49,760 nucleotides of DNA from a virus, in the IMG/VR virus record IMGVR_UViG_3300030329_004601, positions 1 through 49,760 of that record. The stretch is one strand, 5' to 3'. A program made the translations under genes and the position numbers. This document shows positions 4,703-33,835 of the stretch, one piece after another. The stretch's first letter is position 1, and every line of letters starts with the position of its first letter. The notes under the pieces are model-generated. The model saw only the letters and a program-made list of their open reading frames with translations. It was not told the origin of the DNA and searched no databases.

Positions 4703-6417
4703 TATGTACCTGAACCACCACCGTGTGTAGTTCCATCAGACCATCCTGGATTCATCTTCGTTGAAGAAGCTCTAGTTCCACCTCCAGATGTTATCGCAAA
4801 GTTTTCTACAGTTGAATCATCAATGAAGTCATCAACTACGCATATTTTAACATAAGCCTCTCTAATACTGTTTAAGCTTCTTGCGTTTACAGATGCTATA
4901 GTATTCTTTCTTCCACTTCTCTGATACCCAGATAAAGCAGAATTAAAACATGCTAAAAATTTAAACTCTCCCAAAATAGGACATCCTTCAAATCTCATAG
5001 TTCCTGTTTCATAGTTTATCCATCCACTGCCCCCAGCAGCTCTATTTAAATTTCCATGTCCATCATCGAACATTATCGAAGAATAATCATCATCTTCAGG
5101 ATATGAAGGTGCTATCTGATTTTCAGTATCAAAGGTAGTTACTGCAGGTATATCCCCTACTCCCCAAGGAGTTGTTCCTGATGTGGGAGCTGCAAGAACG
5201 CAATTTGCCCCTGTGTGGTTATGAAGATTAGTAAATTGAATATCTCCATTTACTATATCAACACTTGCATGACATCTGACATTACTCGAATATGTCGAAT
5301 CAATTGCATCTTGTATTTTTCTCAACACTCCTGTGCTTTTTGCTCCTTTATTTCCCCAAGTAACATCATTCTTGTCAGTGGTAAAAGATATACTGGCGAA
5401 TGAAGTTCCTGATAATGTAATATTGAATGCATACGCAGTATTTTTAGCCAGTCCTGATGATCTCGAAGGGTGGACATCTCTCATTCCAAGTCTAGTAAAA
5501 CCACCTTCTGAAAATTTAATAGCCACAGATCCTGGCACTATTCCTTGAGGATAAGATTGACCACCAGTTCCATTCTGTCTTCCATATCCAAAGAAATTTG
5601 TAGTCATATACGATCCTTTTTCATCAGTGAATACTTCAGTATCAGAAGAATTTATATTGTCATCTGTGTATTTATTTTGGAAGTAAAATTCAACATGAGA
5701 GTCGTCAGCGTGTGTTGCAGCTGTACTTCCTGCTACTCCACGAGCTACAGTTATATCTGTATTACTGGATACATCTGCTGTAACTTGCATAATTTCATTT
5801 TCAACTCTAATTAAATCATATTTTTTAAAAAAGTATGTATCTCCACTATCTAAAACCAATGTTGTTACTGTAGTATCACTTCCCATGCCTGATCCGTTTA
5901 TTTCAACAGAAGTATCTGTAGCTGAACCACTATGATTGTAAGGTTGTACATTCCCAGCTTCAGCTGGAGATGTAAAGGAAGTCAATTCATATTTTTTCCC
6001 AGCAGATTGCAATGTTGCTGAAAATGGATTAGATTGATCTGTGTTTGTATCATATGTAAACATTTGAGTTGTAGGTAGATGCATATACTCACCACCATTC
6101 AATATAAAGCACAATACATGGTTATAAGGATCACCACCCCTAATCTCATCATCACTGTTATCGAATGCATTCAATACTATTTGAATTTCTACTGGTTGCT
6201 CAGTTACATTATGAACAAGCATAAATACACCCTTACCAAAATTGGAACTTGATTTGGCAGGGTCGAGTTTAATTAAATTTGTAAGGCCATCAGAATTAGT
6301 TACTCTGATTGTTTGCTCAAATGTAATATCAGAATTACCAGAAGATGATATACTTCCTCCGATACCACTGCCATATCCACCTGTAGCATTATAAGTTAAA
6401 TTAGTCGAAACTGCCAT
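4702..6417 (-). CDS. Tail or fibre structural protein, 571 aa
   Basis: A Gly/Ser/Thr/Asn/Asp-rich protein without membrane segments. Around residues 195-235 it has a segment (TYFFKKYDLIRVENEIMQV, then TVARGVAGSTAATH) of the kind seen in many phage baseplate and fibre proteins. The C-terminus is Gly/Ser/Thr-rich (GGGTRASST) and probably flexible. It lies directly upstream of the nozzle gene, sharing one base of a TAATG junction. A tail-associated structural role is inferred from composition and position; I do not recognise the family. Confidence 0.5.
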   Translation of the reverse strand: MAVSTNLTYNATGGYGSGIGGSISSSGNSDITFEQTIRVTNSDGLTNLIKLDPAKSSSNFGKGVFMLVHNVTEQPVEIQIVLNAFDNSDDEIRGGDPYNHVLCFILNGGEYMHLPTTQMFTYDTNTDQSNPFSATLQSAGKKYELTSFTSPAEAGNVQPYNHSGSATDTSVEINGSGMGSDTTVTTLVLDSGDTYFFKKYDLIRVENEIMQVTADVSSNTDITVARGVAGSTAATHADDSHVEFYFQNKYTDDNINSSDTEVFTDEKGSYMTTNFFGYGRQNGTGGQSYPQGIVPGSVAIKFSEGGFTRLGMRDVHPSRSSGLAKNTAYAFNITLSGTSFASISFTTDKNDVTWGNKGAKSTGVLRKIQDAIDSTYSSNVRCHASVDIVNGDIQFTNLHNHTGANCVLAAPTSGTTPWGVGDIPAVTTFDTENQIAPSYPEDDDYSSIMFDDGHGNLNRAAGGSGWINYETGTMRFEGCPILGEFKFLACFNSALSGYQRSGRKNTIASVNARSLNSIREAYVKICVVDDFIDDSTVENFAITSGGGTRASSTKMNPGWSDGTTHGGGSGT

Positions 6418-24886: not shown

Positions 24887-25568
24887 TCTCAAGCTCCTGT
24901 GTTAATTTAGGTGAAATCCCACCCCAAACGGTAAGAGTTTCCTTTTTAGTTTCCTCTGTGCTGAACAAACCACTTATTTTTGCTAGACTCTCAAGGCTTC
25001 TAAGCTTGATATTGTCTTGTTCTGCAAGATCTGCTATATCTTTCATTCGCTGAATGATGTATGCATGAGTGACACCTTCTTCTTCTAATATTTCTTGGAT
25101 TTCTTTTTTAACCATATCTTGAACATTCTCCATTTTCATTAAGGAATTAGACCTATTGCGTATGTAACTCTCGTTTTTAGCGTTTGGGAATACCTCTTTG
25201 TAGGCAGATACCACATCCTTTCCCAGAGCTACATACTTGGCGAACAACTTTTGTTTGCTTTTGCTGCATGTATCCAGCTGATCTTTCCCATTAAAAGTAT
25301 AGATTCGGTCTGCAATCCCCTTTTTTCCCAAGATCGGAGTTTTTGACTTTGTATTGAAAGATCCTAAAACAGTGCGAATGCACTTAGTGTTCTGTATTTT
25401 GAAGGATTTAAGGTTTTGACAAACATAACCATCGCTGGTTTCTATCCAATCGCCTTCTTTAGCATTCCTCCAGTCTTTTCTTGCTGTAATATCAGGATGG
25501 TGTAAATTAAACTCAAATATGCTTTCATATAAAAAATGCTTCTTTCCTTTAATTTCTTTAAAATCCAT
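24828..25568 (-). CDS. terS: Small terminase subunit, 246 aa
   Basis: First gene of the late block. The N-terminal 80 residues (EGDWIETSDGYVCQNLKSF) are a beta domain, followed by a helical part (KQKLFAKYVALGKDVVSAYK, then a HTH-like stretch and IIQRMKDIADLAEQDN) typical of small terminase proteins, which recognise phage DNA and load the large subunit. Lys/Glu-rich tail. The ATG has no ribosome site; a promoter-like pair five bases upstream suggests a leaderless mRNA. Confidence 0.75.
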   Translation of the reverse strand: MDFKEIKGKKHFLYESIFEFNLHHPDITARKDWRNAKEGDWIETSDGYVCQNLKSFKIQNTKCIRTVLGSFNTKSKTPILGKKGIADRIYTFNGKDQLDTCSKSKQKLFAKYVALGKDVVSAYKEVFPNAKNESYIRNRSNSLMKMENVQDMVKKEIQEILEEEGVTHAYIIQRMKDIADLAEQDNIKLRSLESLAKISGLFSTEETKKETLTVWGGISPKLTQELENDTKKAELLAHGEQESSSK

Positions 25569-25573
25569 AGTTT

Positions 25574-25602
25574 AATTTATGAAAAATAAAAAATATTTGC
25601 AA
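25574..25602 (-). promoter_or_regulatory. Probable late promoter, leaderless for terS
   Basis: On the minus strand TTGCAA (25602-25597), a 17-base spacer and TAAATT (25579-25574) resemble a sigma-70 promoter. The ATG of terS begins five bases after the TAAATT box, so transcription would start at or next to the start codon. No ribosome site exists there, which agrees with a leaderless mRNA. The TAAATT box recurs in the candidate promoter at 31324. Confidence 0.5.
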
Positions 25603-25679
25603 GTCGACTTAGAATACTCCGAAAAACACCATAATGGTAGTTTTAAGATCGTTGAAAAAAAAAATTGAATCCCCCCTTA

Positions 25680-25724
25680 TATTAATAACAGTATTAATAG
25701 TGTATTAATAACGAACTATTAACT
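25680..25724. repeat. TATTAATA palindrome cluster (operator or origin iterons)
   Basis: The eight-base palindrome TATTAATA occurs at 25680, 25692 and 25703, with a near copy at 25717, so spacing is 11-14 bp, about one helix turn. Further single copies lie at 26045 and 26277. A 22-base stretch starting at 25680 recurs exactly at 31785-31806 inside the Cas4-like nuclease gene. One-turn spacing of a palindrome is what a dimeric regulator or an origin-binding protein would need. Confidence 0.5.
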
Positions 25725-26108
25725 AAAGAAAAATAATATAAAAAGAAAGTAAGTTGAAAAAATAGCATTAGAATGAGTGTAACGGTTGTTTTATTATCGC
25801 CCTATGGGTCATCGGCTCTTGGGGGGTTAGCGTTTTAGTTGAAAATCTAATTGAGAATGAGTCTCAATATCAATTATAATAACCATTATTTATATTACTT
25901 GCATTATATATATAATATGTTGTATATTCTAGGTTTTACCCTATTGTGTACTAAATGAGATTGGATCTCAATAAGTAATTAAATGTAATTAAGTAGTACA
26001 ATATATATATATCTATTTTATAGTATAAAACAAGTATAACAGCCTATTAATACGGCACTAATTATAATTTTTTTCTCGTCGACAAATCAATTTATTTTAA
26101 AAAAACAC

Positions 26109-26136
26109 TTGACTTACATTATATTTATAATATAGA
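26109..26136 (+). promoter_or_regulatory. Probable early promoter
   Basis: TTGACT (26109-26114), a 16-base AT-rich spacer and TATAGA (26131-26136) form a sigma-70-like pair, preceded by an A-run that could act as an UP element. The twelve bases AAAAAACACTTG before and into the -35 box recur at the candidate promoter at 31324. A transcript from here would start near 26143 and carry a leader of about 570 bases with both structured elements before the first early gene. Confidence 0.45.
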
Positions 26137-26284
26137 TTACTATTGTAATTTAAATTATAATTGATATCAATTTAGAATTAGTACTAATTAAATAAGTTTT
26201 AAAATATAACTGAGATTATAAAAACTTATAACAGCTTTTTAAATATAGTTAGATATATTAATAAATGCTAGTGAATTATTAATA

Positions 26285-26460
26285 GCGTTCAGTCGGTGAG
26301 GTGGTCGTATTGTGTCGAGGTGATCTCTGAACATAGCCATAAACAAGAAACCGACGACGAGGGTGATAATTTAATAACTGATAGCACGAAAAGATATAGG
26401 CTTCTAGCGAGGAGAAATCCGAGATGTATAAATTTGTTTGGCTGTTCGTGGTCGGTAACA
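26285..26460 (+). ncRNA. GC-rich structured element, possible pseudoknotted RNA
   Basis: A GC-rich island in very AT-rich sequence. GTTCAG (26287-26292) can pair with CTGAAC (26327-26332), and TCGGT (26293-26297) with ACCGA (26350-26354); the order makes a pseudoknot. CACGAA (26385-26390) pairs with TTCGTG (26445-26450), enclosing a hairpin CTTCT/AGGAG (401-405 with 410-414). No plausible gene lies here. The strand is assumed from the early promoter upstream. No known RNA family is recognised. Confidence 0.4.
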
Positions 26461-26616
26461 AATAAAGTATTTTAATTACTGCTAGATAAAATACAATTTA
26501 ATTTATAACGATAGGAATTTACATTGAATAAATGTTTACGAGTCGAAAAAAGAATAAATATAAAATTGATACTAGTCAAATTTTGTGAAGGGGTCGCAGT
26601 TACGGAACAAATTTTT

Positions 26617-26674
26617 TAGATGGAAGAGGGGTCAGCCCCTGCACGATAAAATAAAGTCGTATTTAATCCATCTA
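26617..26674 (+). ncRNA. Three-way-junction element before the first early gene
   Basis: TAGATGGA (26617-26624) pairs with TCCATCTA (26667-26674), eight base pairs. Inside are AGGGG (26627-26631) with CCCCT (26636-26640) over a UCAG loop, and ACGAT (26643-26647) with GTCGT (26656-26660). Together they form a compact three-way junction about 40 bases before the first early start codon. It may be a leader control element; no match to a known riboswitch was recognised. Confidence 0.45.
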
Positions 26675-26692
26675 CTAAGTGACAACAACAAC

Positions 26693-26705
26693 AATAAAAT
26701 AAGGA
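26693..26705 (+). repeat. Repeated ribosome-site leader, three copies
   Basis: The 13-base leader AATAAAATAAGGA stands before three early genes: here (gene at 26715), at 27128-27140 (gene at 27150) and at 27917-27929 (gene at 27939). Each is preceded by AACAA repeats and followed by AACTAAA-like spacers. A looser copy precedes 28390. The shared leaders probably give equal, strong initiation on early genes. Confidence 0.6.
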
Positions 26706-26714
26706 ACTAAAACA

Positions 26715-26897
26715 ATGGATAAAAAGACAGAAGATTTATACGATTATTTACTAGAAACAGAAACAGCAACGCAGGACGAAATCAGCCTAGTAACCTCTAT
26801 AAATGGGACTAATCTAGATACTTTAGAAGATATCTTATATAGTCGTACAGGTTATCATACTTTAAGTCAAATTCAAGAAATGGAAGGAGGTGAATAA
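26715..26897 (+). CDS. Small conserved-looking early protein, 60 aa
   Basis: First early gene, behind the repeated AAGGA leader. The product is acidic and helical (LYDYLLETETATQDEISLVT, LDTLEDILYSRTGYHTLSQI) and ends in EMEGGE. This layout is seen in small proteins of many phages but I know no function. It couples to the next gene, whose ribosome site is inside it. Confidence 0.7.
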   Translation: MDKKTEDLYDYLLETETATQDEISLVTSINGTNLDTLEDILYSRTGYHTLSQIQEMEGGE

Positions 26898-26898
26898 T

Positions 26899-27120
26899 AT
26901 GAGAACATATAATTGTGCTGAGTGTGAAAAGGAAGATATAGGAGCAAGAGGATTGTTCCTTGAAAGTATTACTTATCATATGTGGGCAAGGCTAGACGCA
27001 TATGGTAATTTTACTGAACTTTGTTGTGATGAATGTTATGACAATGGTAATTATAGCTTCAGGAAGGATGATTATTTTGATGAGGCTTACTGTGGGGAGA
27101 GATTAGATAATGATTACTAA
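26899..27120 (+). CDS. Small Cys-rich zinc-binding early protein, 73 aa
   Basis: CAEC at the start and CCDEC near residue 42, with a later Cys, suggest a zinc site. Acidic overall. ATG 26899 has AGGAGG eight bases upstream and is preferred to the in-frame GTG at 26890. It follows the first gene after one base. Probably an early host-takeover or regulatory protein. Confidence 0.65.
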   Translation: MRTYNCAECEKEDIGARGLFLESITYHMWARLDAYGNFTELCCDECYDNGNYSFRKDDYFDEAYCGERLDNDY

Positions 27121-27149
27121 AAACAATAATAAAATAAGGAACTAAACCA

Positions 27150-27908
27150 ATGAAAAACTTTTACGGAAAGCTATTAAGTCCACCAACATACAATTTCAAA
27201 CTAAGCAAGAACATTAAATTGAAAGTACATACTTATAGTTTAAACTTTGCTCATAGTGATCTAAGTGGTTATAATGTTTGCCCATTTGCAAACAAATTAG
27301 TAGAGGGAGAACAAAGTAAAAATAAAAGTTCGTGTTCTAGTGTATGCGTGGGATATCGAGGCAATGCACAGAGATTCAAATCAGTAATGCAATCAAGAAT
27401 TAAAAAAACAAAGATGTTTTTTAACAATAGAGAAGAGTTTTTAAAGCTATTGATTAAAGATATTAAAAAAGCAATTGCATTTAGTGAAAGCAAAGGATTT
27501 AAAGCATCATTTAGATTGAATGCTTATTCAGATATTAAATGGGAGAATATAAAGATTGATAATGGTGAGATCTTTCCACCGAATATATTTGAATTATTTA
27601 GTGATCAGATCTTTTATGACTACACAAAACACCCAAGCAGAGAAGTACCAAGCAATTATCATTTAACTTATTCACATTGGGGTAACTGGGACCATACACA
27701 GCAGAACATTAACAACCGTAACAATATTGCAATGGTATTTAATGAACTACCAAACAAATACAAAAACATCAAGGTTGTTAACGGAGATGATAACGATCTG
27801 AGAACAAAACAGAATGACGGCAACGGAGTAATTGTAGGACTTAAATTCAAAGGTAGTAAGAAAGAATTAAACAACGGAATTACTGAAGGCTTCGTAGTAG
27901 AAGCATAA
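27150..27908 (+). CDS. Gp88-like Cys-motif phage protein, 252 aa
   Basis: C44 (NVCPFANK), C62 and C66 (SSCSSVCVGYRGNAQ) followed by KSVMQSRIKKTKMFF, ASFRLNAYSDIKWENI and FYDYTKHPSREVPSN give the pattern of the Gp88 family of phage proteins, which share a CP...C...C head, an RLN-type strand and a YTK-type strand. The Cys set suggests a metal or Fe-S centre; the activity of that family is not established. Full length. It uses the repeated leader. Confidence 0.6.
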   Translation: MKNFYGKLLSPPTYNFKLSKNIKLKVHTYSLNFAHSDLSGYNVCPFANKLVEGEQSKNKSSCSSVCVGYRGNAQRFKSVMQSRIKKTKMFFNNREEFLKLLIKDIKKAIAFSESKGFKASFRLNAYSDIKWENIKIDNGEIFPPNIFELFSDQIFYDYTKHPSREVPSNYHLTYSHWGNWDHTQQNINNRNNIAMVFNELPNKYKNIKVVNGDDNDLRTKQNDGNGVIVGLKFKGSKKELNNGITEGFVVEA

Positions 27909-32694: not shown

Positions 32695-33089
32695 TGAACA
32701 TGAGAGATCTTTTTAATAAGTACACATTCCTGTCTAAGGAAGAGGGTGTGGACTTTTGGAAGTGTCATAATAGTTACATACTGACCCATGATGCTATAAC
32801 TAAAATAGCCAATTACGAACAAATAGAATTGGTTAGTATAGAATCCCTGGTAAATGCTGAAACCTGTGTAAGGTTTCTAGTTACAATGAAAGACAGAAAA
32901 GGGAGGAAAGTTATAACCGTGGGAGAAGCAACAACACAGAACTCTAAAAACAATTACTACGGAGCAATGGCTGAGAAGAGGGGTATAGACAGAGCTGTCC
33001 TAAAGCTGATTAATGCTTATGAGTATGGTGTATACTCAGAGGTAGAGGCCGATGCTTTTGAAAAACCAACCAAAAAGGAGAACGCATAA
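32694..33089 (+). CDS. Possible single-strand annealing protein, 131 aa
   Basis: A KVITVGEATTQNSKNNYYGA segment followed by MAEKRGIDRAVLKLINAYEY matches the shape of the Rad52/Erf-like cores: a strand, then an Arg-rich helix. It is encoded between a nuclease and an SSB, as annealases usually are. It is shorter than known ones, so the assignment is tentative. Confidence 0.4.
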   Translation: MNMRDLFNKYTFLSKEEGVDFWKCHNSYILTHDAITKIANYEQIELVSIESLVNAETCVRFLVTMKDRKGRKVITVGEATTQNSKNNYYGAMAEKRGIDRAVLKLINAYEYGVYSEVEADAFEKPTKKENA

Positions 33090-33835
33090 TGAGAACAAAA
33101 ACAATAAACCAAGTTAAGGAAACATCAAACTATTCCATGTTTAAAAGGATGCAAGGAAATAGAGTTGTCAATAAAGCACATCTCAAAAGATTAAGATCTT
33201 CAATAAACGAAGAATCTTTAATCGTTCCGATGATAGTAAACGAGAGATATGAGATCATTGATGGCCAGACAAGGTTTGAGTCCTGGAAAGAACTTAGACT
33301 TCCTGTTTACTATGTAAGGGTTAAAGGATATGGTTTAAAGCAGGTACAAAGACTAAACAGCAATATAAAAAACTGGAACATAAAAGACTATACCGACAGC
33401 TATTGCGAACTTGGTCTTCAAGACTATATAAGATATAGAGAGTTTAAGAAAGAGTATGGACTTGGGGATTACGAATGTATAGCGATGCTGAAAGGTGTCG
33501 TTGGTGGAGCTGGATCGAATTTTAACAGCTATAGAGACGGAAGGTTTAAAATAAGGTCTTACTCTAAGGCTTGTTATTGGGCAGAAAGGATTGTAGCATT
33601 AAAACCTTTTTATAAAGGATACAGAAGGAGATCTTTTGTTTTTGCAATGCTGCACCTACTAAGCAATAAGAATTTTGACTTTGATCGACTTATACAAAAG
33701 TTGAAATACCAATCTTCTAAATTGGTGGATTGCTCAAATAAAAGCCAGTATATTAACCTACTGCAAGATATCTACAACTTCAAAACAAACAATAAGGTTA
33801 ACTTGTTGTACTTAAACACAAAGGAGGAGAAGTAA
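33089..33835 (+). CDS. ParB-like N-terminal domain protein, 248 aa
   Basis: LIVPMIVNERYEIIDGQTRF, with D58-G59-Q60-T61-R62, matches the DGQHR loop of ParB-type CTPase/nuclease folds, followed by ESWKELRLPVYYV. The rest is helical and basic (YKGYRRRSFVFAMLHLLSNK). Phage proteins with this domain often have regulatory or nuclease roles; this one is unassigned. Coupled to both neighbours. Confidence 0.7.
   Translation: MRTKTINQVKETSNYSMFKRMQGNRVVNKAHLKRLRSSINEESLIVPMIVNERYEIIDGQTRFESWKELRLPVYYVRVKGYGLKQVQRLNSNIKNWNIKDYTDSYCELGLQDYIRYREFKKEYGLGDYECIAMLKGVVGGAGSNFNSYRDGRFKIRSYSKACYWAERIVALKPFYKGYRRRSFVFAMLHLLSNKNFDFDRLIQKLKYQSSKLVDCSNKSQYINLLQDIYNFKTNNKVNLLYLNTKEEK

Follow-up and report, generated by a model that had tools for sequence, protein, structure and literature searches.

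Genome organization and the divergent control region

The uncultivated virus contig IMGVR_UViG_3300030329_004601 was analyzed over its full 49,760 bases (hereafter, the window) and probably derives from a marine phage. Relatives of its terL product are found in hundreds of IMG/VR contigs, with up to 83% amino acid identity among the best 80 of them, while identity to cultured phages stays below 60% overall and reaches 24% to 27% for the best among the matches listed. The late genes, including terS and those for the endolysin, TerL, the portal, and the major head protein, run leftward from position 25568, and the early genes run rightward from 26715 and encode a GP88 family protein, a Cas4-like exonuclease, a ParB-like protein (33089 to 33835), a DnaB-like helicase, and a Holliday junction resolvase. 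Between them lies the sole divergent intergenic region of the window (25569 to 26714), which contains the GC-rich island studied here (26285 to 26460). The cumulative GC-skew minimum of the genome is located near 25500, and ARAGORN detected neither tRNA nor tmRNA genes in the window.

Upstream of terS, this control region carries a single-copy element of roughly 100 bp (25758 to 25857) that we call element C and that is conserved, likewise upstream of terS, in 53 related loci. Its conserved arms (AAAAATAG..TTAGAATGNGTG and GTTGAA, with the left side given as AAAAATAGNNTTAGAATGNGTGTG) are mostly 66 to 70 bp apart and enclose a GC-rich, variable center. Because the distance between the arms is fixed, the center is free to vary, and terS adjoins, element C looks like a packaging (cos/pac) site or another protein-bound DNA site; considered as an RNA, it gave no consensus structure or covariation on either strand. 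The terS leader itself contains a long A/T-rich hairpin on the minus strand (25670 to 25750; base CTTTCTTTTT..AAGGGGGGA, z of −3.5), and relatives without the R RNA described below carry a comparable C-run plus AT-rich repeats at this position.

Among the rightward promoter-like sites of the control region, the best is TTGAGA-18-TATAAT at 25851 to 25880 on the plus strand, which agrees with the consensus at 11 of 12 positions, a consensus match only, and overlaps the first of two operator-like palindromes that lie 104 nt apart (25847 to 25869, ATTGAGAATGAGTCTCAAT; 25951 to 25973, ATGAGATTGGATCTCAAT). A candidate sigma70-type early promoter at 26109 to 26138 on the same strand (TTGACT-18-TAGATT), from which the original prediction had the island transcribed, is indeed present as a consensus match but weak (9 of 12) and inferior to the site at 25851; a similar promoter sequence precedes a rightward ORF in a related locus (L082, 5236 to 5286). 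The island would not form the 5′ end of a transcript from 26109, as had been proposed, but would begin ca. 140 nt into the RNA. No intrinsic terminator was found downstream of it.

Within the early leader, the better-supported structure is not the island but a three-way-junction fold on the plus strand at 26613 to 26684, ca. 30 nt ahead of where the early genes begin, in which TAGATGG..CCATCTA encloses AGGGGTCAGCCCCT and ACGA..TCGT hairpins. Its folding signal is the strongest of the control region (z of −3.9 in a sliding scan and −3.0 when refolded), and no relatives of it were found in the loci searched. A translation-start context, ACAATAAAATAAGGAACTAAAACAATG, is repeated ahead of early genes (26692 to 26714 and 27124 to 27149) and also occurs in four related loci (L009, L010, L035, and L041).

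Composition, coding potential, and relatives of the island

The island reaches 44% GC on a plus strand containing 50 G and 27 C (GC fraction of 0.4375) between flanks of 18% to 19% (0.181 at 25871 to 26284 and 0.192 at 26461 to 26580), and both of its ends are sharp in composition. None of 2,000 dinucleotide-preserving shuffles of 25569 to 26714 contained a 176-nt stretch as GC-rich, so that the central observation of the original prediction, a GC-rich island (43.8%) in an AT-rich region, stands. GC skew rises from about zero in the left flank to +0.30 in the island and stands at +0.22 in the right flank; the early genes have +0.24, so that the excess of G over C on the plus strand has the same sign in the island as there. 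Imperfect 18-nt AT-rich repeats occur in three copies in and around the island (26254, 26367, and 26468), a constellation seen in none of 500 block shuffles within 291 nt but in 13% of those across the whole control region.

Two frames are open over nearly the full length of the island, one of 60 codons on the minus strand (TTG start at 26461) and one of 59 codons on the plus strand (GTG start at 26296), and at least two such frames arise in shuffles with p of about 0.02. Judged by the phage's own codon usage, the best island frame reaches p of about 0.1 compared with p ≤ 0.003 for each of ten real small early genes, which agrees with the earlier impression that no frame looks coding. A conserved protein, which would have spoken against an RNA, did not emerge either, as neither protein families nor phage proteins match the island frames. 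We therefore regard the island as apparently non-coding.

The island appears to be an orphan, by which we mean an orphan among the sequences that were searchable. The covariance comparison with Rfam that had been suggested for it gave no family match, neither on the window at gathering score nor on 25560 to 26720 up to an E value of 10. The suggested alignment of related phages likewise produced no homolog in about 97 related-phage loci, and nucleotide searches of phages and plasmids returned chance matches only (9% to 18% coverage). No exact 18- to 19-mers of the island were found in IMG/VR, and two isolated matches of a 20-mer in genomes did not extend and were judged to be chance.

The proposed pseudoknot

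The interleaved complementary segments that had suggested a pseudoknot are present as described, with segment a (GTTCAG, 26287 to 26292) complementary to a′ (CTGAAC, 26327 to 26332) and segment b (GTCGGT, 26292 to 26297) complementary to b′ (ACCGAC, 26350 to 26355), all on the plus strand and with base 26292 common to a and b. Both pairings are nonetheless at chance level: in 84% of shuffled islands, two stems of at least six base pairs interleave, and in 63% such a pair scores at least as high as that of the island. It thus resembles H-type pseudoknots in the order of its complementary segments but shows no interleaved helices beyond chance, given that 63% to 84% of shuffles equal it. The "closed hairpin domain" of the original prediction does appear in the minimum-energy fold (26350 to 26456, plus strand), yet it and the pseudoknot are mutually exclusive because both use ACCGAC at 26350 to 26355, which can pair equally well with GTCGGT at 26292 to 26297 or at 26451 to 26456.

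Island folding energy shows no excess over shuffles on either strand, with z of about +0.7 to +0.94 on the plus strand, where 168 of 200 shuffles were at least as stable, and z of +1.08 on the minus strand. This lack does not settle the matter, since genuine R RNAs behave alike in their pseudoknotted 5′ portion: whereas z ranges from −0.8 to −3.2 for full-length members of that family, values of +0.12, −1.05, and +0.75 were obtained for the first 176 nt, which hold the pseudoknot. The z value of the island is consequently compatible with a pseudoknotted RNA without supporting one. With pairing at chance level, no folding excess, no Rfam match, and no relative, the evidence does not bear out the island as a pseudoknotted RNA, and we doubt that the specific pseudoknot proposed for it is real.

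An R RNA family in related phages

The signal that drew attention to the island, a GC-rich and ORF-free stretch in an AT-rich control region, was traced into relatives and in this way led to an RNA family that we call R RNA. We catalogued GC-rich islands with AT-rich flanks in related-phage loci and found that nearly all ORF-free ones are either R RNA or element C. The generalization that such islands are typical of functional RNA is therefore partly borne out, since ORF-free islands in relatives do mark conserved non-coding elements, but element C looks like a DNA site; the calibration is also modest because it consists of repeated sightings of two families only.

R RNA is a covarying, pseudoknotted RNA of ca. 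240 to 290 nt found in dozens of uncultivated, mostly marine-looking viral contigs. It is present in 16 loci related through terL and early genes, mostly between terS and element C, and loci from a pattern scan of IMG/VR added at least 42 matches (E ≤ 0.001), some of which are the same contigs again. Members include L028 (7332 to 7571, minus strand), L034 (863 to 1135, minus), L066 (369 to 633, minus), L095 (813 to 1100, plus), L169 (8003 to 8280, plus), L155 (3700 to 4013, minus), and L082 (about 4780 to 5158, minus), plus about 50 more loci. Outside the terS group, R RNA adjoins other genes, such as a sigma factor and a replication initiation protein near the member in L169. R RNA islands have 36% to 44% GC beside AT-rich flanks, and several members have a promoter-like sequence just upstream.

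A covarying pseudoknot is formed by the hairpin loop UUGGYUNAANNCUU, which pairs with a downstream (N)AAGGGG inside a second helix, and further covarying helices are present. Across 11 sequences, 97.8% of alignment cells pair and 13 of 21 pairs show double-sided changes; covariation scores 0.55, whereas shuffles give 0.19 and sliding the partner gives no more than 0.14. None of five loci tested matched Rfam, and a search of open-licence literature turned up no fitting description of an RNA of this type in phages. R RNA is a well-supported family, without an Rfam match in the loci tested, and a stronger result than the island itself.

The 8 to 13 nt that follow GGCUCC(G) in R RNA recur ca. 70 to 94 nt downstream at the 3′ end of the RNA, after CUCACCA. 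Within a phage the two copies agree exactly, whereas they differ from one phage to the next, as seen for GGGATAGTAT in L155, AAGGTTATAATAT in L082, CGAGTTACATA in L103, AAGGTTGTA in L169, and AGTACAAAG in L148, each of which occurs twice. A repeat match of 9 out of 9 was found in 26 of 41 members (mean of 8.6) compared with 2.8% (mean of 6.9) when copies were paired across phages, and repeats differ even between closely similar phages (GAGCAA in L053 and GAGTAA in L097). Such a pattern would be expected of a guide or template directed at the RNA's own flank, of a landing site, and equally of gene conversion between the copies; an internal guide complementary to both copies was not found consistently.

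The island shares with R RNA its GC-richness, freedom from ORFs, plus-strand orientation, and a-b-a′-b′ topology (in R RNA, a hairpin loop with a downstream segment), and in part of the related phages R RNA occupies the same divergent control region. It nevertheless lies on the opposite side of element C and has none of the motifs of R RNA, i.e., the invariant loop, AAGGGG, GGCUC, the covarying helices, and the copied 3′ end. The loop and its (N)AAGGGG partner are absent from 26285 to 26460, where GAGGGTGAT at 26360 comes nearest, there is no GGCTC in the island, and no 3′-copied direct repeat was found beyond the imperfect 18-nt ones. In a search of 2.5 kb with a narrow covariance model (R1), the island came out on top (8.5 bits, E of 0.073), but this hint fell to noise with a broader model of 43 members (R2), with which the island was the 28th best hit of the window (6.9 bits, E of 7.9); members score 27 to 161 bits with R1 and 52 to 146 bits with R2. 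The island is not a member of the R RNA family, and R RNA is not present in the window.

Interpretation of the island

The likeliest single reading, held tentatively and short of an even chance, sees in the island an orphan RNA element that is carried by the plus strand within the early leader. It would be a lineage-specific, non-coding part of the long untranslated leader that opens the rightward early transcript and would act as RNA, namely as a locally structured segment whose GC-richness would be kept by selection against the strong surrounding AT bias. We infer that the island is transcribed, that it folds, and that its folding is of consequence. Evidence in favor comes from the sharp change in composition, the lack of a phage-like coding signal, the position between divergent late and early operons, the sign of the skew, plausible rightward promoters upstream, and the near-constant coincidence of ORF-free GC islands with conserved non-coding elements at this control region of related phages; against it stand the missing folding excess, the chance-level pseudoknots, and the absence of a homolog among the sequences searched, of a terminator, and of membership in R RNA, together with the fact that, measured against shuffles, the leader folds most stably elsewhere, at 26613 to 26684. 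The island resembles regulatory RNAs in the 5′ leaders of phage early operons in lying downstream of a promoter-like site and ahead of the early genes, but it matches no Rfam leader and has neither a terminator nor a structure that would sequester a ribosome-binding site. That it does the job of R RNA in this phage, whether as an unrelated substitute or as a family member that has diverged past recognition, seems very unlikely, despite the same control region and strand, a size of similar order, and a similar composition and interleaved topology.

Other explanations dispense with RNA structure. The complementary segments could be repeated motifs in an array of DNA sites of the operator or replication-origin type, present in both orientations and bound by a phage protein that recognizes a GTCG-containing motif. 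ACCGAC/GTCGGT (GTCGGT twice and ACCGAC once) ranks first among the 6-mers of the island. GTCG/CGAC occurs 13 times in 25569 to 26714, fivefold above the 2.6 expected from dinucleotide shuffles, and despite the low GC content this is its densest stretch of the genome (14 in 25001 to 27500 compared with 1 to 10 elsewhere); two of the control-region sites form GTCGAC palindromes (25603 and 26078). The setting between divergent operons, with an 18% GC stretch, palindromes, and the skew minimum near 25500, would fit as well, and it is possible that these are binding sites for a phage-specific protein. However, the enrichment is absent from the control regions of 26 related phages (0 to 3 copies each), the sites have neither regular spacing nor a long consensus, the skew minimum is equally expected from the switch in gene direction alone, and binding sites alone would not account for a 176-nt island with two sharp ends, so that we consider such an array unlikely, albeit worth keeping in view. 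Recently acquired or decaying foreign or former coding DNA with a residual higher GC content and no current function would agree with the lack of a homolog, of a conserved position in relatives, and of a folding excess, as well as with the two nearly full-length open frames (p of about 0.02). Yet no frame has phage codon usage or a protein match, insertion scars or flanking duplications are missing except for the weak 18-nt AT-rich repeats, and strong selection usually acts on the control regions of phages, which makes this origin improbable, too. A small lineage-specific protein of 59 amino acids (plus strand) or 60 amino acids (minus strand) is far less probable still, for although both frames are open and the plus frame scores least poorly for codon usage (p of about 0.10), there is no ATG start, no ribosome-binding site resembling AAGGAACTAAA of the neighboring genes, and no family match, with all ten real small genes at p ≤ 0.003.

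The island is so far a single orphan candidate of modest interest, and its value is methodological, as the pointer that led to R RNA. If that family holds up, an RNA that carries a copy of its own 3′ flank, with both copies changing in concert from phage to phage, raises a directly testable question.
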